From the NCBI RefSeq assembly GCF_000971235.1, contig NZ_BBMB01000005.1, positions 62,001-126,000 on the forward strand: a DNA stretch of 64,000 nt, in the 5' to 3' direction. Numbering within the stretch: position 1 is the first letter of the stretch; each line of letters begins with the position of its first letter. Under the pieces are notes generated by a model that saw nothing but the letters and a program-made list of their open reading frames with translations, ran no database searches and was not told the DNA's origin. Below, piece by piece: positions 1,462-60,809 of this stretch. Source of the stretch: Demequina subtropica (GTDB lineage Bacteria > Actinomycetota > Actinomycetes > Actinomycetales > Demequinaceae). A program made the position numbers and the translations under genes.

Positions 1462-1851
1462 GGCGTTCTCCGGGGACGATGCGCGGCTCGCAGTCCACCC
1501 CACCGTCGCACGCCGGGCTCCTGGAATGGGGCGCTCAGCGTCGCTCTGGAGTGATCGCTGCGCGCCTTGGGGCATCCACGTTCGTCGCCGTCGGGCGAGC
1601 GACCACCGATGCCCCATGGCGGACCGCGCACGTCAGGAAGCGACGGTGGACGCCCCATCTCCCCGAGGGCGCGGGGTGGGCGCGCGGGCGGCAGGTGCGG
1701 ACGCGGGCTGCACCTGGAATGCCCTGGCACCCGCTCCGGTTGGAGTGGATGTCCCATCACGCTCCGGCCCCGGTCACCGCTAGGCTCGGAACGTTCCCGG
1801 AAACCCGGCCGCGTCGCCCACCTGGCAGCGCGGCCCGACCATGGAGGAAGA
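1462..1851. repeat. Intergenic region with a three-armed repeat (family G)
   Basis: This gene-free stretch between qcrB and sodA carries related words: TGGGGCATCCAC at 1568-1579, and in the opposite orientation GTGGACGCCCCA at 1646-1657 and GTGGATGTCCCA at 1745-1756. A further GATGCCCCA at 1608-1616 mirrors the first arm, and CCTGGAATG occurs at 1520-1528 and 1713-1721. It also holds a GGACGATGC word at 1474-1482. Reading frames through the region use codons unlike neighbouring genes, so I see no gene. The sodA promoter must lie in its last part. Confidence 0.55.
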
Positions 1852-2472
1852 ATGGCCGACTACACGCTGCCGGACCTCAGCTACGACTACGGCGCCCTCG
1901 ACCCGTACATCGCGGGCGAGATCATGGAGCTCCACCACAGCAAGCACCACGCGGCGTACGTCGCCGGCGCGAACACGGCGCTCGAGAAGATGGCGGGCGC
2001 GCGCGAGTCCGGCGACTTCGGCGCCATCGCGGGCCTCGAGAAGGCGCTCGCCTTCAACCTGGGCGGCCACACCAACCACTCGGTGTTCTGGACCAACATG
2101 TCCCCCGACGGCGGCGACAAGCCCGAGGGCGAGCTCGCGGCCGCGATCGACGAGCACTTCGGATCGTTCGACGGCTTCCGCGCCCACTTCACCCACAACG
2201 CCATGACGATCATGGGGTCCGGCTGGTCGATCCTCGCGTGGGACACGATCGGCAAGAAGCTCATCATCGTCCAGCTCTACGACCAGCAGGGCAACGTCCC
2301 CGTGGGCCTGATCCCGCTGCTCATGCTCGACATGTGGGAGCACGCGTTCTACCTGCAGTACAAGAACGTCAAGGCCGACTACGTCAACGCGTGGTGGAAC
2401 GTCGTGGACTGGGCCAACGTCCAGCAGCGCTTCATCACGGCGACGGCGACGCAGGGCCTCATCGTCGCATAG
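1852..2472 (+). CDS. sodA: Superoxide dismutase, Fe/Mn family
   Basis: A 206-residue cytosolic enzyme that dismutates superoxide to oxygen and hydrogen peroxide. The four metal ligands of the Fe/Mn family are visible: His28 in LHHSKHH, His76 in GGHTNH, and Asp160 and His164 in LDMWEHAFY. Length matches the family. The start chosen is the ATG at 1852, preceded by GGAGGAAG; upstream in-frame codons run into the repeat-rich intergenic region and are not coding-like. Whether it uses iron or manganese cannot be decided from these residues alone. It is probably monocistronic, with a hairpin following. Confidence 0.95.
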
Positions 2473-2493
2473 CGCTCGCACGCATCGTCCGGA

Positions 2494-2521
2494 GGGCGGT
2501 CTCCCGCATGGGAGGCCGCCC
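2494..2521 (+). terminator. Hairpin terminator after sodA
   Basis: GGGCGGTCTCCC and GGGAGGCCGCCC pair over 12 bases (one wobble) around a GCAT loop, 21 bases after the sodA stop. A GCATCGTCC word (2482-2490) lies just before it. Confidence 0.7.
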
Positions 2522-5673: not shown

Positions 5674-5791
5674 GGGGGCTCCCGTCGGTGGGGACGATGC
5701 GACGGTCACCATTGTGGCGCGGGGCACCGACATCGGCGGGATCAGGGCCGCAGCGGGCGCTCCGCGCGGCGCGAGCGCGCCCCGGCGCGCG

Positions 5792-10392: not shown

Positions 10393-10650
10393 GTGACCGC
10401 GGACGATGCGGCCGTCGAGGGCGACGCCCCCGTCACGGTCGACGCGACGGGGCTGCTGTGCCCCCTGCCGATCATCGAGCTCGCGAAGGCCGCGCGCGGC
10501 CTGGGGCCCGGCACCGAGGTCACGGTGCTGTGCACCGACCTAGCGGCGCGGGTCGACGTGCCCGCGTGGGCGCGCATGACCGGGAACGACTTCGTGGGGG
10601 AAAGCGAAACGGACGGTGAAGGCGTAGCCCTCACCGTCCGTCTGCGCTGA
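10393..10650 (+). CDS. tusA: TusA-family sulfurtransferase
   Basis: An 85-residue protein with the signature LLCPLPIIELAKA: the CPxP motif whose Cys carries a persulfide and passes sulfur to acceptors (tRNA thiolation, molybdopterin or other relays). The GTG at 10393 begins two bases after the stop of the NifS-like gene, so the two are surely co-transcribed. The GTG-ACC-GCG-GAC-GAT-GCG start includes a GGACGATGC word. A short acidic N-terminal leader precedes the domain. Physical pairing with a desulfurase-like protein supports a sulfur relay. Confidence 0.88.
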   Translation: MTADDAAVEGDAPVTVDATGLLCPLPIIELAKAARGLGPGTEVTVLCTDLAARVDVPAWARMTGNDFVGESETDGEGVALTVRLR

Positions 10651-15222: not shown

Positions 15223-15903
15223 ATGTTGCGCGACCGCGACGATGCGGGCGGGAGGCTCACGTGGCTCCTGTCGCCGCTCGTGACGCAGGGCTCCGGCACC
15301 GAGGCCGTGGTGCTCGCGCTGCCCCGCGGCGGCGTGCCCGTCGGCGCGGCGATCGCGCGTGGCCTGGGCCTCCCGCTCGACGTCTGCGTGGTGCGCAAGC
15401 TGGGCGCGCCGGGCAACCCCGAGTACGGCTTCGGCGCGATCGGCGAAGGGGGCGTGCGCGTGGTCGACGAGGACTCGATGCGAGCGCTCCAGCTCGACGA
15501 GGCCGACGTGGCGGCGGTCGAGGAGCGGGAGCGGGCGCGCCTGGACGATGCGGTCGCGAGGTACCGCGCGGTCCGCGCCCGTGTGCCCCTCGCGGGACGC
15601 ACCGCGATCGTGGTCGACGACGGGATCGCGACGGGAGGCACGGCGCGGGCCGCGGCACGCGTGGCGCGCGCCGCCGGTGCGACGCGGGTCATCGTGGCCG
15701 CCGGCGTCGCGGCGCCCGACTCCCTCCACGCGCTCATGCGCGACGGCAGCGCGGACCTCGCGCTCGCGGCGCTCATCCCGAACCGGCTCATGGCCGTGGG
15801 CCAGTGGTACCTCGACTTCTCCCAGACCCCCGACTCCGAGGTGCTGCGCCTGCTCGCCGAGGCGGGGTCAGCGCCCGCCGTCGGCGATGGCGAGGATGCG
15901 TGA
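15223..15903 (+). CDS. Phosphoribosyltransferase-family protein
   Basis: A 226-residue protein with the type I phosphoribosyltransferase fold. The PRPP loop is AIVVDDGIATGGTARAAAR (D-D-G-x-A-T-G-G-T), preceded by the family motif LALPRGGVPVG and VVRKLGAPGNPEYGFGAIGEGG. It resembles the stand-alone PRT proteins of unknown substrate found in many bacteria. Start choice: codons become strongly GC3-biased only from about 15217 (GTG) or 15223 (ATG). An in-frame ATG at 15133 has an excellent AAGGAG but is followed by codons with much weaker GC3, so I prefer 15223. The gene end overlaps the convergent lysR gene by 36 bases. Confidence 0.8.
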   Translation: MLRDRDDAGGRLTWLLSPLVTQGSGTEAVVLALPRGGVPVGAAIARGLGLPLDVCVVRKLGAPGNPEYGFGAIGEGGVRVVDEDSMRALQLDEADVAAVEERERARLDDAVARYRAVRARVPLAGRTAIVVDDGIATGGTARAAARVARAAGATRVIVAAGVAAPDSLHALMRDGSADLALAALIPNRLMAVGQWYLDFSQTPDSEVLRLLAEAGSAPAVGDGEDA

Positions 15904-16850: not shown

Positions 16851-17933
16851 ATGACCTTCGCGCGCATCGTTCCCCTCCCCCCGAACTGGTTCGCGGCGGT
16901 GATGGGGACGTCGATCGTCGCCACCGCCGCGCATTCGCTCCCGGTCGGGCCCCCGGGCCTCGACGCGCTCGCGTGGGCCGCGTGGGCGCTCGCCGGTGCC
17001 CTGCTGGTGGCGGCGCTCGCGGGCACGGCGGCACACCTGCGGGCCGATCGGGCGGCGCTGCGCGGATACCTCCTCGACCCCGCGGTCGCACCTTTCTACG
17101 GTGCGCCCGCCATGGGCCTGCTCGCCTTCGGGACCGCGACGCTGCTGGTGGCACCGCCCCGGCTCGGCGACGCGGCGCTCGCGATCGACGTGGCGCTGTG
17201 GACCGCGGGCACGTTGCTCGGCCTCGCGACGGCGATCGGGGTCCCGGTCCTCGCGTTCACGCGCCACCGCGTCCCCGCCGACGCCGCCACCGGCGCGTGG
17301 CTCATGCCCGTGGTGCCGCCCATGGTGTCGGCCGCGGCCGGCGCTCTGCTGCTGCCGCACCTCGAGGGCTCGGCGGCCCAGAGCATGGCGCTCGCCTGCT
17401 ACGCGATGTTCGGCGCCTCGACGCTCGCCACGCTCGCCCTCCTCCCCCAGGTCTGGTCGCGCCTCGCCCACCACGGACGCGGAGAGCTCCGGACGGTGCC
17501 GACCATGTGGATCGTGCTCGGGCCCCTGGGGCAGTCGGTGACCGCGGCGGGGCTGCTCGCGGACCACGCGGGCCCCGCGTTGGGCGTGAGCGAGCGTGCT
17601 CTCACGCTGTTCGCGCTCCTCTACGGGATCCCGGTGATGGGCTTCGCGCTGATGTGGCTCGCGATCGCCGGCGGCGTGACCGCGGTCACCGTGCGCGAGG
17701 GCCTGCCCTTCTCGCTCGCCTTCTGGGCGTTCACGTTCCCCGTGGGGACCCTGGTGACCGGGGCATCGTCCCTCGCCTCGCACACCGGCGCGGCCGCGCT
17801 CGACGCGCTCGCCGTCGGGCTGTTCGCGCTGCTGCTCGCGGGGTGGACCGTCGCGGCGACGGGGACGGTGCGGCACCTGCGCGGCGTGCGGCGCCCCGTA
17901 CCGGGCGTCCCGCGGGACGCGGTGCCCGCCTGA
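16851..17933 (+). CDS. TDT-family (SLAC1/TehA-like) transporter
   Basis: A 360-residue membrane protein with about ten hydrophobic helices. The N-terminus (IVPLPPNWFAAVMGTSIVATA) and segments such as WLMPVVPPMVSAAAGALLL match the tellurite-resistance/dicarboxylate transporter (TDT) family, which includes the malate exporter Mae1, TehA and plant SLAC1 anion channels. The substrate, a dicarboxylate or other anion, is not determined by sequence. The ATG at 16851 was chosen over an upstream ATG at 16791 because the family start follows immediately and the control region would otherwise be eaten into. Probably regulated by the divergent LysR protein. Confidence 0.85.
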   Translation: MTFARIVPLPPNWFAAVMGTSIVATAAHSLPVGPPGLDALAWAAWALAGALLVAALAGTAAHLRADRAALRGYLLDPAVAPFYGAPAMGLLAFGTATLLVAPPRLGDAALAIDVALWTAGTLLGLATAIGVPVLAFTRHRVPADAATGAWLMPVVPPMVSAAAGALLLPHLEGSAAQSMALACYAMFGASTLATLALLPQVWSRLAHHGRGELRTVPTMWIVLGPLGQSVTAAGLLADHAGPALGVSERALTLFALLYGIPVMGFALMWLAIAGGVTAVTVREGLPFSLAFWAFTFPVGTLVTGASSLASHTGAAALDALAVGLFALLLAGWTVAATGTVRHLRGVRRPVPGVPRDAVPA

Positions 17934-20686: not shown

Positions 20687-20736
20687 CCCCGTGGGGACGC
20701 TCGGGGACGATGCCCCGGCGGCGGCGGCGCGGCGGG

Positions 20737-22599: not shown

Positions 22600-24309
22600 A
22601 TGAGCAACGACGTCACCCTTCCCGCTCTCGGCGAGTCCGTCACCGAGGGCACCGTCACCCGCTGGCTCAAGAACGTCGGCGACACCGTCGCCGCCGACGA
22701 GCCGCTCCTCGAGGTCTCGACCGACAAGGTCGACACCGAGATCCCGTCGCCCTTCGCGGGCACCCTGCTAGAGATCCTCGTCCAGGAGGACGAGGAGGCC
22801 GCCGTCGGCGCGATCCTCGCGCGCATCGGCGAGGCGGGCGAGGCCCCTGCCGCCGCGCCGGCCCCTGAGGCAGCGGCTCCGGCGCCCGAGGCCGCCCCCG
22901 CCCCCGCGGCGGAGCCCGCACCCGCGGCACCTGCGCCCGCCCCTGCACCGGCCGCCGGCGGTCGCGACGTCACCCTGCCCGCGCTGGGCGAGTCCGTGAC
23001 CGAGGGCACCGTCACCCGCTGGCTCAAGGCCGTTGGCGACTCCGTCGACGCGGACGAGCCGCTCCTCGAGGTCTCGACCGACAAGGTCGACACCGAGATC
23101 CCGTCGCCCTTCGCGGGCGTGCTCACCGAGATCCTCGTGGCCGAGGACGAGATCGCCGAGGTCGGCTCCGTGCTGGCCCGCATCGGCGAGCCCGGCAGCG
23201 CGCCTGCCCCTGCGGCAGCCCCGGCCGCCGCTGCGCCTGCGCCCGCACCGGCACCCGCCGCACCGGCACCCGCCGCACCGGCGCCTGCTCCTGCCGCCCC
23301 CGCGCCGGTCGCGCCGCCCGCTCCCCCGGCCCCCGTGGCAGCGGCTCCGGCCGCTCCGGCTCCCGCCGCGGCCGCGTCGTCCGGCTCGGGCTACGTCACG
23401 CCGATCGTCCGCAAGCTCGCCGCCGACAAGGGTGTGGACCTGTCCTCCCTGACCGGCACCGGCGTGGGCGGCCGCATCCGCAAGGAGGACGTCCTCGCGG
23501 CGGCCACCGCCGCGCCTGCCGCCGCTGCCGCTCCTGCGGCTGCCGCCCCGGCCGCCCCCGCATCGTCCGCGATGGACGTCGAGGTCTCGGAGCTGCGCGG
23601 CCAGACGGTCAAGATGACCCGCATCCGCAAGATCACGGCCGACAAGATGATGGAGTCGCTGCACGGCATGGCGCAGCTCACCTCCGTGGTCGAGGTCGAC
23701 TGCACCAAGATCTGGGCCCTGCGCGCGAAGTCCAAGAACGCGTTCGCGGAGAAGCACGGCGTGAACCTCACGTTCCTGCCCTTCTTCACGCGCGCCGTCG
23801 CGGTGGCGCTCAAGGAGCACGCGTTCCTCAACGCCTCGGTGGTCGAGGACAGCATCGTGTACCACCCGACCGTCAACCTGTCGCTCGCGGTGGACACCCC
23901 CAAGGGCCTCATGCTGCCGACGCTCAAGGATGCGGACTCGAAGAGCATCGTCGAGCACGCCCAGGGCATCGTCGACCTCGCAGGGAAGGCCCGCACCGGG
24001 GGCCTCAGCTCGGACGAGATCTCGGGCGGCACGTTCTCGGTGACCAACACCGGCTCGGGCGGCACGCTGTTCGACACGCCGATCGTCCCGGCGCCGCAGG
24101 TCGGCATCCTCGCCACGTGCGCGATCGTCAAGAAGCCCGTGGTGGTCAAGGGCCCCGACGGCGAGGACGTCATCTCGGTCCGCCCGATGGCCTACCTCCC
24201 GCTGAGCTACGACCACCGGATCGTGGACGGCGCCGACGCGGCCCGCTTCCTCCAGACGGTCAAGCGGATCATCGAGGCGGGCGAGTTCGAGTCCGAGCTC
24301 GGCCTGTAA
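22600..24309 (+). CDS. sucB: 2-oxoacid dehydrogenase E2 (dihydrolipoamide succinyltransferase), two lipoyl domains
   Basis: A 569-residue E2 subunit. The order of domains is lipoyl domain 1 (about 1-78, lipoyl Lys in [12 protein letters not shown]), Ala/Pro linker, lipoyl domain 2 (about 122-198, same motif), a long Ala/Pro linker, the E3-binding domain (about 268-302, [19 protein letters not shown]), another linker, and the catalytic acyltransferase domain ending with [12 protein letters not shown]. Lipoyl attachment would depend on LipB/LipA encoded 4.5 kb downstream. Actinobacterial proteins annotated SucB often serve pyruvate dehydrogenase as well, so the acyl specificity is uncertain. 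The two lipoyl domains share an unusually identical DNA segment. Confidence 0.93.
22696..22761. repeat. 66-bp perfect direct repeat, copy 1 (lipoyl domain 1)
   Basis: Identical base for base to 23053-23118, including all silent positions. It covers the lipoyl-lysine region of the first lipoyl domain of sucB. Confidence 0.95.
23053..23118. repeat. 66-bp perfect direct repeat, copy 2 (lipoyl domain 2)
   Basis: Second copy of the 66-bp segment, offset by 357 bases (119 codons, in frame), so recombination between the copies would cleanly delete or add one lipoyl domain and linker. Confidence 0.95.
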
Positions 24310-28726: not shown

Positions 28727-29419
28727 ATGCAGATCGTCCCCCTCGAGCTCGGCACGCGCCTCGTCCCGTACCAGGAGGCGTGGGATCTCCAGCGCGAGAT
28801 CCACGCGCAGGTCGCGACCGGCGAGCGCGAGGACACGCTGCTCCTGGTCGAGCACGAGCCCGTGTACACGGCGGGCCGCCGCACCGCGACGTGGGACCGG
28901 CCCGTCGACGGCACCCCCGTGGTCGACGTCGACCGCGGCGGCCGCATCACATGGCACGGGCCTGGCCAGCTGGTCGGGTACCCCATCGTGCGGCTCGCGG
29001 AGCCCGTGGACGTGGTCCGCTACGTCCGTCGCCTCGAGCAGGCCGTCATGGACGTGTGCGCCTCATTCGGCCTGGAGACGATGCGCGTCGAGGACCGCTC
29101 GGGCGTGTGGCTGCCCGCCGCCGACGGCAGGCGCGAACGCAAGATCTGCGCGATCGGCGTCCGGGTGGCGAAGGGCGTGACCATGCACGGCTTCGCGCTC
29201 AACTGCACGCCGGATCTCGACTGGTTCGACCGCATCGTCCCGTGCGGCATCTCCGACGCCGACGTCACCTCCCTCAGCGCCGAGCTCGGCCGCGAGGTCC
29301 CGCTGTCCGAGGCGGTCGAGCCGACCGTCCGATTCCTGAACGATGCGCTGGCCGACGTAAGGTGGGCGCTGGCGCCCACCCCTGCCGCCTCCGACCTCCC
29401 CACGAAGGAGCCCGTGTGA
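28727..29419 (+). CDS. lipB: Octanoyltransferase (lipoyl synthesis)
   Basis: A 230-residue enzyme that moves octanoyl groups from acyl carrier protein to lipoyl-domain lysines. Family motifs are [18 protein letters not shown] (substrate pocket), the catalytic Lys in RKICAIGVR and the catalytic Cys in IVPCGISD. The ATG at 28727 lies at the family start. Its stop overlaps the lipA GTG start by four bases (GTGA), so lipB-lipA are translationally coupled and jointly supply the cofactor for SucB. Confidence 0.97.
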
Positions 29420-30432: not shown

Positions 30433-30503
30433 GCCGCGCATCGTCCCGTCATCCTCACGGGGGTCCCGAGCCGGTCCCCACCTGCGACTAGACTGACCGC
30501 ATC

Positions 30504-34240: not shown

Positions 34241-36898
34241 ATGCCTCAGACGTGGACCGGCCGCTCCGGGTGGACGCTCACACGTGAAGGGGCGGGCCTG
34301 GCGCTCACGTTCGACGGCCAGACCACGCGCCTCGAGGGCGCCGAGGCCGCACGGGTGCGCACGGCCTGGTGGTGGACCGGACGCTGCCTCGTGGTCGAGG
34401 CGACGGACGATGCGCCCCGCACCCGCCTGCCCGGCCTTCGCCGGGGCCACGCAAAGGACGTGACGGCCGCGGTGTCCCGCATCGTCACCGGGGCGAAGCT
34501 GCGCGAGCCGCTCCTTCTCGCCGCCGCACGCGAGCCCGTATTCACCCGCCTGCTCGAGACGCGCGTGCGCACGCAGCGGTGGATCGCCCACGACGACGCA
34601 GCCGCGATCCTCGCCGGGCTCCCCCGCCACGACGACGTCCTGGCCGCGCTCACCGAGGCCGAGCGCGAGGGCGTCGAGGACCGGCTCTCCCCCACCGAGC
34701 ATCGCGCTCTGGCGTTCCTCGCGCGCGACCACCTCGCGGACGTCAGCGCGGCGAACGACGAGATCCTGCGTCGCGAGCTCAGGTCCGGCCGCGCCTTCTT
34801 CGCTCGCGTCGAGAAGTCGCCGCTCACCGAGGAGCAGGCGCGCGCCGTGGTCTCCCACGACAACCGCGTGCGCGTGATCGCCGCCGCGGGCTCCGGCAAG
34901 ACCTCCGTGATGGTGGCACGCGCGGCGTACGCGATCCGCCGCGGGTTCGTGCGCCCGGAGCGCGTGCTCATGCTCGCCTTCAACGCGGACGCGGCGAAGG
35001 AGCTCGAGGAGCGCGTCGGCACGCGCCTGCGCGCGCTTGGCCTTGCGAGCGACGGGGTCAAGGCGACGACGTTCCACTCGTTCGGGCTCGCGCTCATCGG
35101 CGAGGCCACAGGTCGCAAGCCGCGCATCGCACCCTGGGTCGAGGGCGGTCGCGACGTGGAGAAGGTGCAGGAGATCGTGGATCGCCTGCGCGACCAGGAC
35201 CTGGGCTTCCGCTTCAAGTGGGACCTGTTCCGCCTGCTCTACGGCAAGCTGTCCGTCGCGGGCGACGGCGGGGCGCCCGACAGCTACGACCCGGCGACCA
35301 AGCTCAGCGGCTTCGAGACCTACCGCGGGGAGACCGTCCGGAGCGAGGGCGAGCGCCTCATCGCGGACTGGCTGTTCCTCCACGGCGTCGAGTACCGCTA
35401 CGAAGCGCCGTACACGCACGATGTCGCCGACCGCGCCCACGGCCAGTACCGGCCCGACTTCTACTACCCGGCCGCGGACGTGTGGCACGAGCACTGGGCG
35501 GTGCGTGCCGACGGCTCGGTGGTCGAGGACTTCCGCGGCTATCGCGAGGCCATGGAGTGGAAGCGCAAGGTCCACGCGCGCCACGGCACCGCGCTGGTCG
35601 AGACCGAGTGGCACTCGATCATCGACCACAGCGGCTTCGAGGCGCTCGCCGAGGACCTCGAGCGTCACGGCCTCGCGCTCGACTGGAACCCCGACAGGGA
35701 GCTGCCCGGCGCCGAGCCCCTCGAGCATGAGCGCCTCGCGCGGCTCATGCGGACGTTCATGTCGCATGTGAAGCCGGGCGCGCTCACGCGCGAGACCCTG
35801 CGGGCCCGAGTCGCCGCGCACCCCGAATGGGACACCGCCCGCACCCGCCTGTTCGTGGACCTGTACTGGCACATCCACGACGCCTGGCAGGCCGAGCTCG
35901 CCGCGACCCGTACCGTCGACTTCGACGACATGCTGCTGGCCGCCGCCGAGGCCGTCGAGCGCGACCCGTCGCTCGCGCGCTGGGACCTCGTCATGGTCGA
36001 CGAGTTCCAGGACACGTCGCGCGCGCGAGCCCGCCTCACCAAGGCGCTGCTGCACGGTCGCGGCAAGCACCTGCTCGCTGTCGGCGACGACTGGCAGGCC
36101 ATCAACCGCTTCGCCGGCGCGGACCTCTCGGTCATGACCGGCTTCGCCGAGTACTTCGGCCCGGCGTTGACCCGCCGCCTCCAGACGACGTTCCGCACCA
36201 CGCAGACCACCGCCGATATCGCCGGCCGCTTCGTGTCGCGCAACCCCGCGCAGATCACCAAGACGGTCCGCTCCGCCCGGGGCGAGGGTGGCGCGCCGGT
36301 CACCATCGTCCGGGTACCGCGGCACGATGCGGTGCCGGGCGCCATCGAGGCTCACCTGGAGCGCCTCGCAGCATCGGCTCGCGGCGCCCGCAGCGGCCGC
36401 GCGACCGTCGATGTCCTCGGCCGCTACGGCTTCGACCAGCAGCTCATGCCCGCGCGGCGCGTGGACGGCCTGGACGTGCGCTTCCGCACCGTGCACCGGT
36501 CGAAGGGCCTCGAGGCGGACCACATCGTCCTGCCGAACGTCACGAGCGGCCGGTACGGCTTCCCCAGCACCATCCCGGACGACCCGGTGCTCGCCCTCGC
36601 GATGTCCGAGGACGACGGCTACCCCGACTCCGAGGAGCGCCGGCTGCTCTACGTTGCGCTCACGCGCGCGCGCCAGACCGTGACGCTGTTCACCGTCGCG
36701 AGACGCGAGTCGCCGTTCGTCCTCGAGCTGCTCGAGGACCCGGGCGTCCAGGTGGTCGACGCGACCGGCGCGCCCGCGGCCGAGGTGCAGGTGTGCCCCG
36801 GCTGCGGCGAGGGCACGCTGGTGAAGCGCACCGGCAGGTACGGCGACTTCCTCGGCTGCAGCGCGTTCCCCCGGTGCACGCAGACCGTCAAGGTGTAG
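34241..36898 (+). CDS. HelD-like UvrD/Rep helicase with nuclease-like insertion and C4 zinc finger
   Basis: An 885-residue superfamily 1 helicase close to E. coli DNA helicase IV (HelD): FFARVEKSPLTEEQARAVV precedes Walker A AAAGSGKTS (Lys220); Walker B is VMVDEFQDTS; later motifs are VGDDWQAINRFAGAD, TVHRSKGLEADHIVLPN and LLYVALTRAR. Between the first RecA motifs and Walker B lies an insertion around residues 365-470 with the pattern E..., YRPDFYYP (Asp406), WHEHW (Glu417), which resembles a PD-(D/E)XK nuclease core. The C-terminus is a topoisomerase-type zinc finger (CPGCGEG ... GCSAFPRC). A role in DNA repair or exclusion of foreign DNA is inferred. ATG 34241. Confidence 0.88.
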   Translation: MPQTWTGRSGWTLTREGAGLALTFDGQTTRLEGAEAARVRTAWWWTGRCLVVEATDDAPRTRLPGLRRGHAKDVTAAVSRIVTGAKLREPLLLAAAREPVFTRLLETRVRTQRWIAHDDAAAILAGLPRHDDVLAALTEAEREGVEDRLSPTEHRALAFLARDHLADVSAANDEILRRELRSGRAFFARVEKSPLTEEQARAVVSHDNRVRVIAAAGSGKTSVMVARAAYAIRRGFVRPERVLMLAFNADAAKELEERVGTRLRALGLASDGVKATTFHSFGLALIGEATGRKPRIAPWVEGGRDVEKVQEIVDRLRDQDLGFRFKWDLFRLLYGKLSVAGDGGAPDSYDPATKLSGFETYRGETVRSEGERLIADWLFLHGVEYRYEAPYTHDVADRAHGQYRPDFYYPAADVWHEHWAVRADGSVVEDFRGYREAMEWKRKVHARHGTALVETEWHSIIDHSGFEALAEDLERHGLALDWNPDRELPGAEPLEHERLARLMRTFMSHVKPGALTRETLRARVAAHPEWDTARTRLFVDLYWHIHDAWQAELAATRTVDFDDMLLAAAEAVERDPSLARWDLVMVDEFQDTSRARARLTKALLHGRGKHLLAVGDDWQAINRFAGADLSVMTGFAEYFGPALTRRLQTTFRTTQTTADIAGRFVSRNPAQITKTVRSARGEGGAPVTIVRVPRHDAVPGAIEAHLERLAASARGARSGRATVDVLGRYGFDQQLMPARRVDGLDVRFRTVHRSKGLEADHIVLPNVTSGRYGFPSTIPDDPVLALAMSEDDGYPDSEERRLLYVALTRARQTVTLFTVARRESPFVLELLEDPGVQVVDATGAPAAEVQVCPGCGEGTLVKRTGRYGDFLGCSAFPRCTQTVKV

Positions 36899-38033: not shown

Positions 38034-40885
38034 GAGAGTGCTCCTTCGTTGGATGCCGGGTATACCAGGGATGGAGGGGTGAGGTCGAGCCGCTCCGCGA
38101 GAAGCTCGAGGACGTGCCGGTAGGGCACGCCCGTGGCTCGGGACATCCCGAGCTCACAGGTCCGGTTGCACGAGGCGTGCGCGTCCGAGCCGAGCGCCGC
38201 CGCCCCAGCGGCCTCGGGTGCGGTGGCCGATGCGGTCAGCTCGGGGTGCAGGAGGCCGCGGTCGCCCGCGAAGGCGCAGCAGCCCCAGTCGTCGGGGACG
38301 GCGACCTCGCGCGCGACCGCTCCGGCCACGCGACGCAGGTCCGCCTCGAGCCCCAGGTGGACCGACGAGCACGTGGGGTGCAGGGTCAGCGAGTCGAGAC
38401 GCGACACCTCGCCGAGCACGGGGAGCACGCGCTCGGCGACGAACGTCACGGCGTCGACCACGCGCACCTCGAAGCCCTGCGCCGCGGCGACCAGGCGCGC
38501 GAAGCCCTCCGTGCAGGACGATGCGTCGCTCACCACGGGCAGCCTGCCGCCGTCCGTCGCGGCGCGAAGGACGGGCAGCACCCTCGCGCGCATCGCAGCG
38601 AGCCCGGCCGTCGCACCCTTGGAGGACCACACGGTCCCGCAGCACAGCGAGTCGATGCCGTCCGGCACGAGCAGCGGGATCCCCGCCGCCGCGCAGAGCG
38701 CCTCGAAGGCCCGCTGCACGCCAGGTCCAGCCCCCGGACCGAACATCGCGCTCTGGCACGAGGGCAGATAGACCACCTCGGGAGGGCCGTCAGGCGCGGG
38801 CCGGGCACGGCTCGCACCACCCTTCGGGAGGTCCGCGGACCACAGCGGCACGGTGTCCTCGCCGAGCACCGCGCGCGCCGCCCGGTTCGCGCCGCGCACC
38901 AGGGGGTCCGGGGCGGCCGCTGCGGCGGTCAGCGCCGCCGATGCCACGCGGTTCGCGCCTTCCCAATGGCGCGCCGCACCGGTCCAGACCGCGCCCAGCG
39001 GTCCGGGCAGATGCTCGGCTCGCAGCCCCTTCACGAGCGCGCCGGTGTCGATCCCCAGCGGGCACGAGGTCGCGCACAGCGAGTCGACCGCGCATGTCTG
39101 CTCCCCCGCGTACCGGTACCCGGCCGCGATCTCCGCCGCCGCATCGTGCTCCCCCGCCGCCTCGGCGGCGCGCATCTCGCGGCGCAGCACGATGCGCTGG
39201 CGCGGCGTGAGGGTGAGGTTCCGCGACGGGCAGATGGGTTCGCAGTAGCCGCACTCGACACACGAGTCCGCGAGCGGCTCGATCGCCGGGGCGAGCTTGA
39301 TGTGCGCGAGGTGCGCGTGGGGATCCTCGGACAGGAGGATGCCGGGCCCAAGAACCCCCTGCGGGTCGCACAGACGCTTGATCTCGCGCATGACGGCGTA
39401 GAGCTCGTCGCCGTACTGACGGCGCACGAACGGCGCCATCACCCGGCCCGTGCCGTGCTCGGCCTTGAGCGATCCGCCCAGGCCGAGGATGAGCGCGACC
39501 AGCTCCTCGGTGAAGGCCTCGTAGCGTCCCAGCGCCTCGGCGCCCTCGAAGCGATCCGTGAGCATGAAGTGGAGGTTGCCGTCCTTGGCGTGTCCGAAGA
39601 TCACCGCGTCCTCGTAGCCGTACCGCTCGAGGAGCGCCGCCAACGCGATGCAGGCGTCCGCCAACCGCTCGACCGGCACGACCACGTCCTCGAGCAGGGC
39701 CGTGGTCCCGCTACGGCGGGCGCCGGCCACCGTCGCGTACAGCCCCTTGCGCAGCTTCCACAGCTCCTCCCGATGCGCGGCGTCGGTGCCGAGCACGGCC
39801 GGCCTCTCGAGCGGGAGCGCGGCGAGGACCGCCCGGGCGCCGTCCACGAGTGCGGCGAGCGCCTGCGCGGTCTCCGCCTGGTACTCGACCAGCAGCGCGG
39901 CCTGCGTGCCGACGGCGAGCGAGCGCACGGCCTCGGGGGCGCCCTTCTGCCCCTGCCCGACACGGAGCGAGGTGGCGTCCATGAGCTCGAGGGCCGCGGC
40001 CCCGGTCGCGACGAGCGGCGGCAGCGCCCGGCTCGCGGCCTCGAGGTCCCGGAATACCAGCAGCGCGGTCGCGGCGTGAGGACGCAGGGGGACGGTGCGC
40101 ATCGTCGCCTCCGCGACGAAGGCGAGCGTGCCCTCGCTGCCCACCAGCAGATGAGCGAGGATCTCGGCCGGGCGCTCGAAGTCGACGAGGGCGTTGACGC
40201 CGTACCCCATGGTGTTCTTCATCGCGAACTGCCGCTCGATGGTCGCGACCGACTCCGGGTTCGCGAGGATCCGGGCGCGCAGCTCGAGCAGCCCGGCGTG
40301 GAGCGCCGGCTCGTCGCGGGCGAGCGTCGCGTCCGCGCCGGGGTCCGCCGTGTCCACCACCGTGCCCGACGGCAGCACCGCGACGAGCGACTCGAGCGTC
40401 CGGTAGCTGTTCTCCACCGTGCCGCAGGACATCCCGGACGAGTTGTTGGCGATCACCCCGCCGAGCGTGCACGCGATCTCGCTCGCGGGATCGGGACCGA
40501 GCCTCCGGCCGTGGCGCAGCAGGCGCGCGTTGACGCGGCGCACGGTCGCGCCGGGCTGGACGCGCACGCGCGCTCCCCCGTCGAGGACCTCGATGTCGGT
40601 GAAGTGACGGCGCACGTCGACGAGCACGCCGTCCGTGCCGGCCTGTCCGGACAGCGACGTCCCGCCGGACCGGAACGTCAGCGGTGCCTGCGCCTCGGCG
40701 GCGGCGCGCATGACCGCCCCGACCTCGGCGGCGCTCGCGGGCGCCACCACGGCCGCGGGGACCAGCAGGACGTGCGAGGCGTCGTGCGCCATCGCGCGAC
40801 GCGTGAGGGTGTCCGTCCGCACCTGCGCGGGATCGTCCACGCACGCATCGAGCAGCTCGCCGAGCCGGGAGTGCTGCGGGGACAT
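38030..40885 (-). CDS. FAD/Fe-S D-lactate (or 2-hydroxyacid) dehydrogenase, fused GlcD-GlcF type
   Basis: A 951-residue fusion. Residues about 45-230 form an FAD-binding PCMH domain (SGGTSLSGQAGTDGVLVD; IANNSSGMSCG); about 270-510 form the C-terminal FAD-oxidase domain (KAEHGTGRVMAPFV). Next come two ferredoxin-like cluster motifs (CVECGYCEPICPSR and CAVDSLCATSCPLG) and a C-terminal CCG/heterodisulfide-reductase-like domain (YLPSCQSAMFG, CCGTVW, CCAFAGDRG). This is the Dld-II/glycolate-oxidase layout that passes electrons from a D-2-hydroxyacid to quinone. The GntR gene is divergent with a palindromic operator between; the hydrolase gene is coupled downstream. Confidence 0.9.
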   Translation of the reverse strand: MSPQHSRLGELLDACVDDPAQVRTDTLTRRAMAHDASHVLLVPAAVVAPASAAEVGAVMRAAAEAQAPLTFRSGGTSLSGQAGTDGVLVDVRRHFTDIEVLDGGARVRVQPGATVRRVNARLLRHGRRLGPDPASEIACTLGGVIANNSSGMSCGTVENSYRTLESLVAVLPSGTVVDTADPGADATLARDEPALHAGLLELRARILANPESVATIERQFAMKNTMGYGVNALVDFERPAEILAHLLVGSEGTLAFVAEATMRTVPLRPHAATALLVFRDLEAASRALPPLVATGAAALELMDATSLRVGQGQKGAPEAVRSLAVGTQAALLVEYQAETAQALAALVDGARAVLAALPLERPAVLGTDAAHREELWKLRKGLYATVAGARRSGTTALLEDVVVPVERLADACIALAALLERYGYEDAVIFGHAKDGNLHFMLTDRFEGAEALGRYEAFTEELVALILGLGGSLKAEHGTGRVMAPFVRRQYGDELYAVMREIKRLCDPQGVLGPGILLSEDPHAHLAHIKLAPAIEPLADSCVECGYCEPICPSRNLTLTPRQRIVLRREMRAAEAAGEHDAAAEIAAGYRYAGEQTCAVDSLCATSCPLGIDTGALVKGLRAEHLPGPLGAVWTGAARHWEGANRVASAALTAAAAAPDPLVRGANRAARAVLGEDTVPLWSADLPKGGASRARPAPDGPPEVVYLPSCQSAMFGPGAGPGVQRAFEALCAAAGIPLLVPDGIDSLCCGTVWSSKGATAGLAAMRARVLPVLRAATDGGRLPVVSDASSCTEGFARLVAAAQGFEVRVVDAVTFVAERVLPVLGEVSRLDSLTLHPTCSSVHLGLEADLRRVAGAVAREVAVPDDWGCCAFAGDRGLLHPELTASATAPEAAGAAALGSDAHASCNRTCELGMSRATGVPYRHVLELLAERLDLTPPSLVYPASNEGALS

Positions 40886-40937: not shown

Positions 40938-41036
40938 GTAGACGCAAGTGACAAGGGTCCCGGATCGGATAGATTGCTCGCAGGCGTTGCGGCTCGGACC
41001 GCCGCATCGTCCCGACCCGACCGACGGAGGACGGCG

Positions 41037-44592: not shown

Positions 44593-45074
44593 CACGCGCC
44601 CCCGAGCGCTGCGGCGTCGCGCGCCCCCATGAGCCGCTCCCGGAACCACCGCTCGTCGGCCGGGTCGAGCGCGATCTCGATCGCGGCATCGTCCGTGCGG
44701 ACCGTGACGATCCTGAGCGGCGGCCCCTCACCGAAGGGCTCATCGCCGAACGGGACGCGCACCCGGTGCGCGCTCGCCGAGGTGCCCAAGACCTGCTCCT
44801 CGACGGCCGTCGGGACGCGTCCCGCGACATCCACGGCGCGGACCGCGATCGCCTCGTCCCGGCGCGCGAGCCTGCCCTCCTCGACGCGCCAGCGCGTCTT
44901 GGACTCCCAGAACGGCTTGAGCCCGGGCACGGTGCCGGACGCGACGCAGGTGTGCGCGGAGATGAGGCCGCGGGACCTCAGCTTCGCGAGGCGCCTGCGG
45001 GTCGGCTGGAATCCCCAGAGCTCGAGCAGCTCGATGATCAGCCAGAACGCCCTGACGAACAGGTAGCCCTCCAC
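44592..45074 (-). CDS. Unknown protein, tandem paralogue 1
   Basis: A 160-residue protein starting at GTG 45074. It has a hydrophobic N-terminal segment (YLFVRAFWLIIELLELWGF), a basic stretch (PTRRRLAKLRSRG), then a beta-rich domain shared with the downstream paralogue. It is longer than its partner by an insertion near HRVRVPFGDEPFGEGPP. The two genes form a coupled operon of their own, convergent with tetR and about 95 bases upstream-facing from prpC. No function can be assigned from sequence. Confidence 0.65.
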   Translation of the reverse strand: MEGYLFVRAFWLIIELLELWGFQPTRRRLAKLRSRGLISAHTCVASGTVPGLKPFWESKTRWRVEEGRLARRDEAIAVRAVDVAGRVPTAVEEQVLGTSASAHRVRVPFGDEPFGEGPPLRIVTVRTDDAAIEIALDPADERWFRERLMGARDAAALGGA

Positions 45075-47298: not shown

Positions 47299-48831
47299 CT
47301 AGAGCAACCCGCGCGGCGCGGGGGCGGCGGCGCGCACGGCATCGGGGACGGTGAAGGTGAGCTCGCCCAGCTCCTCGGGGGCGAGCGCGGGCAGGCGCTG
47401 CGCGACATCGAGGAAGCGCTCGACCTCCGCCTCCTCGAGGACGTCCGCCGCCAGGGTGCGAAACTTCCGCACATAGTCGACGCGGGCGAAGGGCCGCGCG
47501 CCCAGGGGGTGCGCATCGGCGACAGCGATCGAGTCGCGGAACATGCTGCCATCGGCGAAGGTCACCTCGATCGACCCGCCGAACGCCTTCTCCGCGGGGT
47601 CGGTCGAGTGGTAGCGGCGAGTCCAGTCGGGATCCTCCGTGGTGACGATGCGCCGCCACAGCGCCACCGTGTCCGGCCGCGCGGCGCGCTCGGGCAGGTA
47701 GGACGACTCGTGATCGAAGCACCCGTCCTGGAGCGCGACGGTGAAGATGTACGGCAGCGAGTGGTCGAGCGTCTCGCGTGAGGCCGTGGGCGAGTACTTC
47801 TCCGGGTCGCCCGAGCCCGAGCCGATCACGTAGTGCGTATGGTGCGAGGTCGCGAGCACGATGCGCTCGACGCGGTCGGGGTCCGCGATCTCGGGGTGCT
47901 CGTGGTGCAGCCGACGCGCGAGATCGATCCACGCCTGGGACTGGTACTCGGCTGAGTGCTCCTTGGTGTACGAGTCGAGGATGGCGCGGCGCGGCTCCCC
48001 CTGCTCGGGTAGCGACACCTCGTAGGCGGCGTCGAAGCCGCCCAGGAGCCGCGCGATCACCCCGTCCTCGCCCTCGTAGATGGGGGTGGGCGAGGTCTGG
48101 CCGCGCATCGCCCGGTCCACGGCCTCGACGGCGAGCTTGCCGGCGAGCGCGGGCGCGTGCGCCTTCCACGACGAGATCTCGCCCTTGCGGGACTGCCGCG
48201 TCGCGGTCGTCGTGTGAAGCGCCTGCCCCACGGCCTGGAAGATCGTCTCCGTGTCCAGCCCGAGCATCGTCCCGATGCCCGCCGCGGCCGAGGGGCCCAG
48301 GTGCGCGACGTGGTCGATCTTGTGCCGGTGGAGGCTGATGGCCTTGACCAGGTCGATCTGGATCTCGTAGGCGGTCACGATGCCGCGCAGGAGGTCCTCG
48401 CCCGTGACGCCGCATCCGGACGAGTGCTGCGCGACCGCGACGAGCGGCGGGATGTTGTCACCCGGGTGCGAGTACTCCTCCGCGAGGAACGTGTCGTGGT
48501 AGTCGAGCTCGCGCACCGCGACGCCGTTGGCCCACGCAGCCCACTCCGCGCTCACGCGGGTCGCGCCCGGCTCGCCGAGGACCGTCGCGCCGCGCCCGCC
48601 GGACGATGCGCCATGGGCGAGCGCCTGCGCGCGGGCGGCGGACGGGGCCGAGCGGCCGTACGACGCGACCGCGACCGCGGCGTTGTCGATCACGCGGTTG
48701 ATGACCATGTCCTCGACGTCGGGTGTCACGGGCGCGGGATCGGCGGCGACCTCCGCGATCCTCCAGGCGAGCTGCTCCCAGCGAGGCAGCGCCTCGGCGG
48801 AGGTGTGGGCGCGGACGGCGTAGGTCTTCAC
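47299..48831 (-). CDS. prpD: 2-methylcitrate dehydratase
   Basis: A 510-residue MmgE/PrpD-family dehydratase that converts 2-methylcitrate to methylaconitate. Typical blocks: [54 protein letters not shown], and [22 protein letters not shown] start at 48831 overlaps the stop of the gntR gene by four bases (GTGA), so the regulator and enzyme are translated in coupling. Confidence 0.94.
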
Positions 48832-50747: not shown

Positions 50748-51706
50748 GAGCCCCGCCTCGCCTCGAGCGCCGCGATAAGCTGCGGCACCACGTCGAACAG
50801 GTCGCCGACCACGCCGAAGTCGGCGATCTCGAACAACGGCGCGTCGGCGTCGGTGTTGATCACCACGATCGTCTTGGAGGTCTGCATGCCGGAGCGGTGC
50901 TGGATCGCCCCGGAGATGCCGAGCGCGATGTACAGGTCCGGCGACACGGAGACGCCCGTCTGACCCACCTGATGCGAGGACGGCGCGAAGCCCTCGTCCA
51001 CGGCCACGCGCGAGGCGCCCACCGCGGCGCCGAGCGCATCGGCGAGCCGCTCGACCAGCGCGAACTGCTCCGCCGAGCCGATGCCGCGGCCGCCGGAGAC
51101 CACCTTCGCGGCGCCGCGCAGGTCAGGCCGCGACGAGGACTCGACGATGGGCTCGACCGCGGCCACCGCGACCGCGGGCAGGCCGGACGCCTCGACCTTC
51201 AGCTCCTCGACCACGGGATCCGCGACGGCCTCCGCACGGGCCTCGACGGCGCCCTGGCGCATCGTCACCACCGGAGCGCCGAAGGTGGGCGCCGAGTCGA
51301 CCAGGAAGCCCCCGCCGTACACGCTGTGATGAGAGACGACGCCCTCGCTGTCGCGCGAGACCCCGACGGCGTCGACCGCGAGCGTCGCGCGCGCCCGCGC
51401 CGCGTACCGTGCGGCGGCCTCCCGACCCTCGACGGAGTGCGAGACGAGCACGGCGGCGGGGACCACGGCGGCCACGGCCGCCTCGAGCGCGTCGACCGCG
51501 CCGACGCCGAACGCGCCCGCGGGCGCGATCAGCACCCGCGCCGCACCCAGGCGGCCGGCGGCGGCCGCCTCGACCGCCGCATCGTCCCCGACGAGGAGCG
51601 CGACGGGTGTGCCGAGCGAGCCGGCGGCGCCCAGCAGGCCGGCCGACGACGCCGCGAGGCCACCCGTGGGGTCGCGGTCGAGCAGCACCAGGATGGGTTC
51701 CGTCAT
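50744..51706 (-). CDS. etfA: Electron transfer flavoprotein, alpha subunit
   Basis: A 320-residue FAD-binding subunit. The C-terminal FAD domain is diagnostic: [20 protein letters not shown], then [37 protein letters not shown] and [20 protein letters not shown]. It accepts electrons from acyl-CoA and other dehydrogenases. It lies 11 bases after etfB and is coupled to the cytochrome b gene. Start ATG 51706. Confidence 0.96.
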
Positions 51707-53357: not shown

Positions 53358-53397
53358 GCATCGTCCCTGCGCTTGTTAGGTTTCGAGAGGACGATGC
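53358..53397. repeat. Second inverted pair of the GGACGATGC word
   Basis: GCATCGTCC (53358-53366) and GGACGATGC (53389-53397) face each other in the short region between the ZIP-like and permease genes, with the intervening bases relatively AT-rich (CTTGTTAGGTTTCGAG), the likely permease promoter. Confidence 0.55.
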
Positions 53398-55019: not shown

Positions 55020-56087
55020 TCAGACCTCCGTGACACGATGCGGCCCGGCGAGCGCATCGATGAGGTTCTGCGGGTGGTCGGTCGGCTGGGCGGCGTGGCG
55101 CGCCACCGCGGTAGAGGACAGCGACTCGAAGCCGTCCTTCGCCTGACCGATCGGGCGGATGAGCGGCCGCCACAGCTTGAAGATTCCGGAGCGCGAGTTG
55201 CCGATCGGTCCCATCTGGTCCGGCGTGAACGGGACCGACTCGGCCTCGCCCGCGCGCACGGTGCCGCCCTCGACGAACGCATCGTCCACGAAGGCCAGCC
55301 CCTGCGCCGCGGCACGATGCGCGACCCACCGCATCGTGATGTCGGACAGGCCCGTGCCGCCACCGCCTCCGCCCCCCACGTTCGAATGGCAGCCCGCGAA
55401 CCACACCTGCTCGAGGATCTGGCCCGGGGCCGGCTCGGGGAGGTTCCAGAGCGTGGGTGCGAAGGTGGTCCGCTGCTCGTCGATCGCGATGGCATGGTGC
55501 GCGGCCTTGACCGAGCGCGACAGCTGCGTGTCGTGGAACGACCACCGCCGGTTGAACCACTCGATCACGGGCACGGTGGTGCCGGGGATGCCCAGCGAGC
55601 CGACCGTGTCGAACACGCCCACGAACTGGATCTCGAGGCCCTCGTGCGAGTAGTTGCGGCGGAACAGCTCGGCCTTGCGGGCCCCGGGCGCGCTCGCCTT
55701 GGACCGCGACCGGTACAGCGCGTAGGCCTCACCGAGCCTGCCGAGATGGTCGGGCTTGAGGATCCCGGCGTTGCGCAGGAAGCCCGCGATCGAGCGCGCC
55801 GTGTAGGCGCCGCGGCTGTAGCCGATGAGGTAGATCTGGTCGCCGGGCTCGTACTCCTCGGCGATGCGCAGGTAGCCCTGGCGCACGTTCTCCGACAGGC
55901 CCCAGCCGAAGGCCCCGCCCAGCAGCTTCGGCCCCGACGTGCCGACCCCGGTGACGTAGTGGACGTGCTGCTCGACGCCGTCCCCATCCTGCGGCGCCAC
56001 CGCGAGCGCGAGCTTCACCACGTTCGTCGGGTTGCCCTGGTCCGCCTTGCTCCATGTGCCGTCGCAGCACACCACGATGCGCTTCAT
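55020..56087 (-). CDS. DUF2235 alpha/beta-hydrolase domain protein
   Basis: A 355-residue protein of the DUF2235 family, the catalytic domain also found in T6SS phospholipase effectors of the Tle1 type. The opening CCDGTWSKADQGNPTNV is diagnostic, the nucleophile elbow is IGYSRGAYTAR (GxSxG), the acid is in FVGVFDTVGSLG, and the catalytic His in WFAGCHSNVGGG. There is no signal peptide and no adjacent immunity-like or secretion gene, so it is probably a cytosolic hydrolase of unknown substrate. ATG 56087. Confidence 0.88.
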   Translation of the reverse strand: MKRIVVCCDGTWSKADQGNPTNVVKLALAVAPQDGDGVEQHVHYVTGVGTSGPKLLGGAFGWGLSENVRQGYLRIAEEYEPGDQIYLIGYSRGAYTARSIAGFLRNAGILKPDHLGRLGEAYALYRSRSKASAPGARKAELFRRNYSHEGLEIQFVGVFDTVGSLGIPGTTVPVIEWFNRRWSFHDTQLSRSVKAAHHAIAIDEQRTTFAPTLWNLPEPAPGQILEQVWFAGCHSNVGGGGGGGTGLSDITMRWVAHRAAAQGLAFVDDAFVEGGTVRAGEAESVPFTPDQMGPIGNSRSGIFKLWRPLIRPIGQAKDGFESLSSTAVARHAAQPTDHPQNLIDALAGPHRVTEV

Positions 56088-58827: not shown

Positions 58828-58891
58828 GATTCCCGCAGGTACGGCCCGCGCGCCACGGCGGCGGGCGGGTCCGCGACGGAAGGAGCCGAGG

Positions 58892-59929
58892 GTGGCGACG
58901 ATCCAGGGTGTCGCCGAGCGCGCAGGCGTGTCCACCGCGACCGTCTCACGCGCCCTCGCGGGCAAGGCGACCGTCTCGGCTGCGACGCGCAAGAAGGTCG
59001 AGGACGCCGCGCGCGAGCTCGGGTACGTCGCCTCCGCCACCGCATCGTCCCTCGCGTCGGGCCGGACGCGGAACGTGGGCTTCGTGCTGCCCGTCCTGGG
59101 CAGCTGGTACTACGGCAGCGTGCTCAAGGGAGCGAACCGCGCTCTCGCGGATGCGGGCTACGACATCACGCTCTACCACCTCGAGGACACGGACCGTCAT
59201 CCGGAGCGGCGCAAGCGCCTGTTCGCGGAGTTCCTCCAGCGCAAGCGTGTCGACGCGTTCATCGCGGTCTCGGTCGAGCTCACGGACTCGGAGCTCGCGC
59301 GCATCCACGACCTCCGCAAGCCGATGGTGGGCGTCGGCGGCCCGCTCTCCGGCGTCACCACGCTCAGCCTCGACGACCGCGCGGTCGCGCATCTCGCGAC
59401 GTCGCACCTCACCTCCCTGGGCCACCGCCGCATCGGCTTCATCGGCGGCGAGGAGCGCACCAACCTCGACTTCGCGCTCCCCCTGCACCGCCGCGAGGGC
59501 TACGAGGCGGCGCTCGCCGATGCCGGGATCGAGCCCGATGCGCGCCTGCGCTCGATCGGCGACTTCACCATCCAGGGCGGCTACGAGGCCGCCAAGCAGC
59601 TGCTGGGCGACCCCCGCGTGCGACCGTCCGCGATCTTCGCGGCATCGGACGAGATGGCGATCGGCACCATCCTCGCCGCGCGCGACCTCGGGCTGCGGGT
59701 GCCCGAGGAGCTCTCCGTGATCGGGATCGACGGTCACGAGCTGGGCGAGTTCTTCGAGCTCACCACCGTCGACCAGCATCCCGTCGAGCAGGGCCGGCTG
59801 GCCGCCGAGGCGCTGCTCGGCGAGCTGCGGCCCGACGCCGCGGAGGCCACGCACGTCGCCGTCTCCCTCCCCTACGAGCTCAAGGTGCGCCGCTCGACCG
59901 CGGTGCCGCAGGCGGCCAACCGTGACTGA
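58892..59929 (+). CDS. LacI-family transcriptional regulator
   Basis: A 345-residue repressor: N-terminal HTH and hinge (ATIQGVAERAGVSTATVSRAL, then VAGKATVSAATRKKVEDAA-like) and a periplasmic-binding-type sugar domain (LGHRRIGFIGGEERTNLDF; AIFAASDEMAIGTI). GTG start at 58892 with GGAAGGAG. It very probably binds the ATGTAACCGCTTACAT operator 1.8 kb upstream. It overlaps the pfkB gene by eight bases. Confidence 0.94.
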   Translation: MATIQGVAERAGVSTATVSRALAGKATVSAATRKKVEDAARELGYVASATASSLASGRTRNVGFVLPVLGSWYYGSVLKGANRALADAGYDITLYHLEDTDRHPERRKRLFAEFLQRKRVDAFIAVSVELTDSELARIHDLRKPMVGVGGPLSGVTTLSLDDRAVAHLATSHLTSLGHRRIGFIGGEERTNLDFALPLHRREGYEAALADAGIEPDARLRSIGDFTIQGGYEAAKQLLGDPRVRPSAIFAASDEMAIGTILAARDLGLRVPEELSVIGIDGHELGEFFELTTVDQHPVEQGRLAAEALLGELRPDAAEATHVAVSLPYELKVRRSTAVPQAANRD

Positions 59930-60809
59930 GCCCGAGGTGCTCGTGGTGGGGCCCACGAGCGAGAACCTCATCGTCACGCTCGACCGGCTGCCGCGCCCCG
60001 AGCCCCACACGGTCTTCGCGCAGGCGTCGAGCACCGTGCTCGGCGGGACCTCCGCGGGCAAGGCTCTCCACCTGGTCGACAGGGGCGTCTCGGCCACGCT
60101 GCTCACCACGCAGGGGGACGATGCGACGGGCGAGTCGCTCATCGCGGCTCTCCGGGCTTCCGGCGTCGACGTGACCGCCGTGCGCACCGCAGGCCCCAGC
60201 GAGCGCCACCTCAACCTCATGTCGGCGCGCGGTGAGCGGGTCTCGATCTACCTCCAGGCCGCAGCCGACATCGGCGAGGAGGAGCTGCGACGCGCCCGGG
60301 CGAGCGCGCGAGAGGCGCTGGTCCACGCGCGCGCGGTGTTCCTGGACCTCGCCGACCTGTCCCGCGCGCTCATCCCCGAGGTGACGGCGCTCGCCCACGA
60401 GGTGTGGGTGGACGTGCACGACTACGACGGCGTCGAGGCCTTCCACCGGCCCTTCGTCGAGGCCGCGGACGTGATCCTCATGAACGGCGACCGCATGGAC
60501 AGCCCGTCGGTCTACCTGCGCTCGCTGGTCGAGGACGGCAAGCGCCTCGCGGTGTGCACGCTCGGCGCGCGCGGGGCGATCGCCGTCGGCTCGGACGGCT
60601 CCTTCGCACGCGTCGAGGCACCCGTGGTCGACGTGGTGGACCCCAACGGCGCGGGCGATGCGTTCGCGGCGGGCGTGATGTCCCACGCGCTGCGCGTCGG
60701 CGGCGCCGCGTCGCTCACGGGCGACGCCCTGTGGGAGGCGCTCGAGGCGGGATCCGCCCAGGCAGTGCGGGCGCTGTCGACGCGCCAGATGTCGCCGCTG
60801 CTGGACTGA
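59922..60809 (+). CDS. PfkB-family carbohydrate kinase
   Basis: A 295-residue ribokinase-fold sugar kinase. The C-terminal PfkB signature with catalytic Asp is DVVDPNGAGDAFAAGVM; the N-terminal GGTSAGKALHLVDRG holds the sugar-binding Gly pair. GTG start 59922 overlaps the lacI end by eight bases, so it is translated in coupling. The substrate is a hexose or pentose not identifiable here; association with the glucosidase suggests glucose or a rare sugar released by it. Confidence 0.9.
   Translation: MTEPEVLVVGPTSENLIVTLDRLPRPEPHTVFAQASSTVLGGTSAGKALHLVDRGVSATLLTTQGDDATGESLIAALRASGVDVTAVRTAGPSERHLNLMSARGERVSIYLQAAADIGEEELRRARASAREALVHARAVFLDLADLSRALIPEVTALAHEVWVDVHDYDGVEAFHRPFVEAADVILMNGDRMDSPSVYLRSLVEDGKRLAVCTLGARGAIAVGSDGSFARVEAPVVDVVDPNGAGDAFAAGVMSHALRVGGAASLTGDALWEALEAGSAQAVRALSTRQMSPLLD

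Follow-up and report, generated by a model that had tools for sequence, protein, structure and literature searches.

The 64,000-nucleotide window analysed here (Demequina subtropica, contig NZ_BBMB01000005.1, positions 62,001 to 126,000) contains 26 exact copies of the 9-bp word GGACGATGC, 12 on the forward and 14 on the reverse strand, where dinucleotide-preserving shuffles of the window gave 1.85 copies (standard deviation 1.40; maximum of 100 shuffles, 7). The word had been picked out by eye in an initial annotation that reported at least 24 copies; each of the 22 coordinates listed there is an exact match, and the copies starting at 1163, 23560, 29232 and 48264 are additional. Ten copies lie between genes according to our own gene calls, the number first claimed, although intergenic DNA makes up 7.7% of the window. 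Six of these are single sites (1474..1482, 5692..5700 and 20705..20713 on the forward strand; 2482..2490, 30438..30446 and 41004..41012 on the reverse strand), and the other four form the two inverted pairs described earlier, namely 32435..32443 (+) with 32460..32468 (−), upstream of a glnA-like gene, and 53358..53366 (−) with 53389..53397 (+). One copy, 10401..10409 (+), coincides with the start that our calls assign to a small gene. The remaining sites are genic: 15543..15551, 32002..32010, 34405..34413, 38516..38524, 48601..48609 and 60116..60124 on the forward strand, and 1163..1171 (in a cytochrome b-like gene), 17763..17771, 23560..23568 (sucB-like), 29232..29240 (lipB-like), 44686..44694, 48264..48272, 51579..51587, 55279..55287 and 59042..59050 on the reverse strand, the glnA, cytochrome b, sucB and lipB labels being assigned by eye.

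The whole-genome count suggested by the initial annotation revealed an excess larger than first described, with 1,392 copies in 3,075,577 bases (3.08 Mb, 23 contigs) against 18 copies of the reversed word. The copies are divided almost equally between the strands (708 forward, 684 reverse), as is typical of an asymmetric uptake word. To control for codon use, we sampled 464 kb of the genome (the window and 20 stretches of 20 kb), shuffled synonymous codons within genes and modelled the intergenic DNA. This procedure predicted 33.5 copies, whereas 192 were observed (5.7-fold), and the resulting z-score was the highest among all 9-mers, runs of N aside. Across the 3,780 words that can be made by permuting its letters, the mean count in the sample was 7.2 (standard deviation 11.4), and the only one above GGACGATGC was its own one-base shift GACGATGCG (232 copies). 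Inside genes we found 150 of the 192 copies; between genes there were 41 in 35,868 bases, compared with 1.04 expected (about 40-fold). The ratio of intergenic to genic density was 3.3 in this genome and 1.4-6.2 in nine others, the gene calls being poor in some genomes of the study (called coding fraction 0.53-0.58 in G008, G010 and G060). Hence neither composition nor codon use accounts for the word. A count no greater than that of equal-composition 9-mers in codon-shuffled sequence, or an enrichment owed wholly to codon-pair preference without intergenic excess, had been named at the outset as grounds for dropping the word, and neither was found.

On the opposite strand, the preferred spelling in the same sample is CGCATCGTCC, in which GCATCG is nearly invariant and the final three bases are softer. 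Within GCATCG no substitution exceeds expectation other than A in place of the first G (24 versus 12.4), and the last three bases accept change. The flanks share a single further base, a G following GGACGATGC in 79% of the copies. Separately, GCGTCGTCC, one base away from the word, was fourfold rarer than codon shuffling predicts (16 versus 63.5).

Comparison across the genus revealed that the favoured word is not the same in all species. The dialect matrix, with the codon-shuffle control, covered 39 of 44 genomes (all except G007, G028, G029, G032 and G059), with uneven samples (464 kb for D. subtropica, 400 kb for G026, 15-100 kb for the others), many of the genomes being drafts or metagenome bins. 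Three dialects were distinguished: A, GCATCGTCC, which is GGACGATGC read on the other strand; B, GCATCGGCC, frequently accompanied by AGCATCGGC; and C, AGCGTCGG[G/C]. They align without gaps as GC[A/G]TCG[T/G][C/G]C, with the shared frame GC[A/G]TCG. Dialect A leads in 14 genomes, B in 15 and C in two (G009, 43 versus 2.3 expected; G003, 34 versus 4.4). The remaining eight are weak or unclear (G001, G005, G011, G012, G017 and G027) or too small at 20 kb (G008 and G018); within the weak set, G005 has nine C words versus 1.8 expected, G012 seven B words versus 1.9, and G017 six C words versus 1.7. G061 gave a weak A sample (4 versus 2.3 in 15 kb), yet its whole genome holds 1,749 copies of GCATCGKCC. 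The B word is raised in A genomes as well (72 versus 24.9 in D. subtropica, 50 versus 16.3 in G026), and in whole-genome counts of the 8-mers AGCGTCGG and GCATCGGC the groups overlap more than in the dialect matrix, D. subtropica having 1,333 copies of GCATCGGC against 495 of its reverse.

Whole-genome counts of GGACGATGC in 37 genomes of the genus, including our own and excluding G059, fell into 929-1,700 copies in 13 genomes and 49-275 in the other 24; in 22 genomes belonging to different families within the order, the range was 36-203. In a wider draw of 248 genomes of the order, the count of GCATCGKCC ranged from 1,020 to 2,220 in 18 Demequina genomes, and none of the remaining 230 exceeded 222 per Mb, a maximum reached in family f20; G179, from another genus of the same family (1.9 Mb), had 227. 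When loci were matched by the neighbouring DUF4191 protein (named by eye), 11 Demequina loci carried 3-15 copies, the closest being that of D. gelatinilytica (98%), and 39 loci of other genera carried 0-2 copies each. Some genomes of this further family, f20 (e.g. G095, G236 and G266), had 190-222 copies of GCATCGKCC per Mb, eight to ten times their reversed control, and it is possible that a weaker or differently spelled word occurs there.

To place the dialects on a phylogeny, a FastTree tree was built from sucB, lipB, lipA, DUF4191 and glnA, many genomes contributing part of the five genes (G012 one). Dialect A appears in two separate places, in the clade of D. subtropica and in a pair formed by G004 and G063 (support 1.00); this pair groups with the word-poor G001, G011 and G027 in a region of the tree where B is otherwise the dialect. 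Switching of dialects in place was not seen: among aligned cells, only 4 of 568 at B sites carry the A word in A genomes, and in B genomes the B word fills only 6 of 876 cells aligned to A sites from the D. subtropica clade. The words of the two dialects stand at different places, and dialects therefore changed by turnover rather than by site-by-site rewriting. Between species, intergenic word sites were retained above background (18 of 31 cells versus about 7 expected), in a comparison of about eight sites whose cells share ancestry.

The genes expected for natural transformation are widespread in Demequina. ComEC was found in 43 of 44 genomes, the sole miss being an 85% complete genome, and ComEA in the same 43; PilB- and PilT-like ATPases were present in all 10 genomes tested. 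A pilus cluster, whole or partial, was found in three genomes and comprises pilB, pilT, pilC, pilA, minor pilins, a PilX-like gene, pilD, pilM, pilN and pilO (loci L254, L139 at 9.7-18 kb and L161 at 8-13.5 kb). Matches above the Pfam cut-offs were obtained for T2SSE, prepilin N_methyl, T2SSF, peptidase A24, PilM_2, SLBB/HHH_3 (ComEA) and Competence (ComEC). Among NCBIfam models, PilT passed the cut-off and PilB, PilM, ComEA and ComEC fell below it, the ComEA and ComEC sequences being from different genomes and some of them partial; PilV, PilW, PilX, PilN and PilO were labelled by their place in the cluster and by weak similarity. Judged by gene presence, the predicted competence set of type IV pilus, ComEA and ComEC is conserved. 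The ComEC match is split over two frames in three genomes (G026:C1:423579-424363, G009:C1:2039413-2040200 and G060:C1:296957-297743), which may reflect real breaks or assembly errors.

Taken together, the scatter on both strands, the strict core, the intergenic excess, the dialects and the conserved competence genes match what is known of uptake words, and by analogy with the DNA uptake sequence (DUS) of Neisseriaceae and the uptake signal sequence (USS) of Pasteurellaceae we propose, with a probability of roughly 70%, that the Demequina word is a DNA-uptake word acting like these and invented independently. An excess of inverted pairs, many of them serving as terminators, is a further mark of uptake words; close inverted pairs are in excess in D. 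subtropica but not in dialect B, and the pairs that were folded form hairpins. An influence of the word on DNA uptake, its reading by a receptor and the build-up of copies through biased uptake are inferred. In the mechanism we envisage, a DNA receptor at the cell surface, possibly located on the type IV pilus, would prefer fragments with the local dialect of GC[A/G]TCG[T/G][C/G]C during natural transformation; word-bearing fragments would enter more often via ComEA and ComEC and then recombine into the chromosome. Mutations creating the word would thereby spread, and the word would accumulate on both strands where coding permits, most densely between genes. A shift in receptor preference would give rise to a new dialect, and a lost preference would lead to decay of the word. 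Demequina would then be, as we judge somewhat less surely but still probable, the first monoderm genus with sequence-specific uptake, displaying at least three dialects, the same word reached twice, and losses, all within one genus.

Several observations weigh against an uptake word. No transformation of Demequina was found among the matches listed in the open-licence literature searched. Word density does not depend on local GC content, and two of the three longest word-free gaps resemble housekeeping operons by eye. Genic word sites are kept between species at about background (14 of 33 cells versus about 12 expected), and across distant clades the conservation of word sites does not exceed that of random 9-mers. 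Same-orientation pairs within 60 bp are also in excess over all A samples (14 versus 5.5 expected), dialect B has no excess of inverted close pairs (8 opposite and 10 same, 5.2 expected of each), and of the 14 opposite-orientation close pairs in D. subtropica five are intergenic and nine lie inside called genes. ComEA and ComEC are present in species with a weak word or none. The PilW-like minor pilin of the D. subtropica type is missing from 8 of the 15 measured A genomes and does not track the dialect, and ComEA of the second A clade does not clearly stand out from its neighbours: its identity to G026 is 50% in G004 and 54% in G063, compared with 53% in each of G001, G011 and G027, and its bit scores (143 and 149, versus 113-136 in the neighbours) are a little higher but like those of B genomes such as G034 (149).

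The genus-wide search for a receptor covered two candidates, the PilW-like minor pilin and ComEA. A full-length minor pilin of the D. subtropica type occurs in 17 of 44 genomes, seven of dialect A and ten others (B, weak, or outside the matrix), and a first hint that it follows the dialect, from D. subtropica (A), G004 (A) and G031 (B) (59% versus 27%), was undone by this search. ComEA likewise showed no clear tracking in G004 and G063, and these comparisons point to neither protein as the one setting the dialect. Between pilA and pilD, the cassette of minor pilins seems to be a mosaic, with at least two dissimilar sets at the same place that follow neither the housekeeping tree nor the word dialect. 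PilD, the intended control, seems to follow the cassette (57-60% identity to D. subtropica in G062, G007 and G014, 47% in the close relative G002) and is therefore a poor control.

Alternatively, the word could be recognised by a protein that binds or modifies the chromosome, such as a nucleoid protein or an orphan methyltransferase, whose specificity drifted between clades and whose binding or modification matters enough for copies to be retained. Shortness and asymmetry, a strict core beside a soft edge, an intergenic excess and lineage-specific variants are all expected of such a target, as is the retention of intergenic sites above background, and sequence alone does not separate this alternative from uptake. 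Methylation or another DNA-binding protein, both among the roles first suggested, is thus compatible with the sequence evidence. However, most copies are genic and turn over at about the background rate, indicating that single sites are not under strong selection, and the dialect words were not converted in place; to our knowledge, methylation motifs do not usually show so large an excess. We consider this explanation unlikely.

Much less likely still is that the copies are remnants of a tiny interspersed element or of word-carrying terminators. In D. subtropica 14 opposite-orientation pairs and one same-orientation pair lie within 60 bp (2.1 expected of each), and 28 opposite pairs were found over all A samples (5.5 expected). 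The window pairs 32435/32460 and 53358/53389 fold as hairpins (z −5.0 and −2.3), as did all four pairs folded (z −2.3 to −8.1), and three of the four lie no more than 50 bp behind a gene, as terminators would; clear T-tracts were not seen at these four. A terminator role is unlikely for the nine close pairs inside called genes, the copies are mostly single, and the flanks have no common sequence beyond the one shared base, so the interspersed element was rejected.

A chromosome-polarity word such as the FtsK orienting polar sequence (KOPS) or Chi, or a segregation site, would also occur in hundreds of copies across many contigs, but we give it hardly any credence, since orientation follows no single direction in the stretches sampled. 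Orientations were intermixed over a few kb in the sampled stretches of nine genomes, a few of which hold no more than one or two copies; for the single-contig genome G026 the sample comprised 20 stretches distributed round the chromosome. Neighbouring sites alternate: 101 opposite versus 70 same in D. subtropica (p 0.02) and 75 versus 34 in G026 (p 0.0001). Alternation was absent from the 12 other A genomes pooled (81 versus 77), and the counts were 424 versus 373 in dialect B (p 0.08) and 63 versus 44 in dialect C (G009 only, p 0.08); nine of ten frequent control words showed the reverse trend, same exceeding opposite. Inverted pairs at short distance contribute to the alternation of neighbours, and so does a slight deficit of same-orientation pairs spaced 300-1,200 bp apart. 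Pairs of the latter kind were rarer than chance in all three dialects (A, 72 versus 93.6; B, 69 versus 88.0; C in G009, 14 versus 21.5), and opposite-orientation pairs at this distance were near expectation (103, 91 and 22); this shortage is a post hoc lead only, and perhaps orientation matters. Among the functions first proposed for the word, uptake is the best supported, on the strength of the two-strand scatter, the intergenic excess, the dialects on a shared frame and the conserved competence and pilus genes; segregation and recombination are disfavoured by the intermixed orientation.

An origin of the word as a side effect of mutation bias, or of preferences for certain codon pairs or amino acids (Asp-Asp-Ala and others), would explain the preferred frame, 73 of 80 same-strand genic sites in the sample reading G-GAC-GAT-GCN in line with the initial remark on GAT codons, and about 33 of the 192 copies, but it is scarcely credible given the excess over codon shuffling, the intergenic counts and a dialect matrix in which the favoured word differs between clades of similar composition. 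The same three results support the initial proposal that selection acts on DNA rather than on protein.

One word-free stretch of the D. subtropica genome deserves separate mention. L093:7303-16422 on contig C23 spans 9.1 kb of low GC content (0.674) and encodes GmrSD, HSDR_N and a Schlafen-type helicase; it is perhaps an acquired defence island. Its lack of the word is in line with uptake words, which would be scarce in foreign DNA. As a general marker of such DNA, word-free gaps gave a mixed outcome, with this one defence-gene stretch set against the two housekeeping-like operons.

Other abundant short words resemble the Demequina word in part. HIP1 of cyanobacteria is very abundant both between and inside genes, as is the Demequina word, but it is a palindromic octamer and the Demequina word is asymmetric. 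KOPS and Chi are short, asymmetric and present in hundreds of copies, but they are polarised with replication, whereas the orientation of the Demequina word is mixed. USS is accompanied by a longer flanking motif, and the flanks of the Demequina word show none. USS is a 9-mer with many copies and a small essential core (PMC5031613), features shared by the Demequina word, and it is established as an uptake word in Pasteurellaceae (PMC12616744, PMC5031613); USS differs in its unrelated sequence and in belonging to a Gram-negative family. DUS is an asymmetric word of about 10 bp that occurs on both strands, in roughly a thousand copies or more, and has several dialects built on a common core and tracking phylogeny (PMC3630211), again as in Demequina. 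It amounts to about 1,900 copies in N. meningitidis or N. gonorrhoeae, compared with 1,392 in the 3.08 Mb of D. subtropica. The DUS sequence is unrelated, Demequina is an actinobacterial monoderm, and its dialect A sits in two clades; a ComP-like receptor is known for DUS, whereas the two candidates compared in Demequina do not follow the dialect. Uptake of DNA by monoderms is described in a recent paper as lacking sequence specificity (PMC12153270), and among the matches listed in the open-licence literature searched we found no uptake word for Actinobacteria or Gram-positive bacteria, including Micrococcus luteus and Demequina.

An actinobacterial genus that combines several dialects with type IV pilus genes and ComEA/ComEC, and whose type strains are in culture, would offer a way to study how uptake words originate, switch and are lost. 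If the word serves another role, a dialect-forming word of about 1,400 copies still demands explanation.

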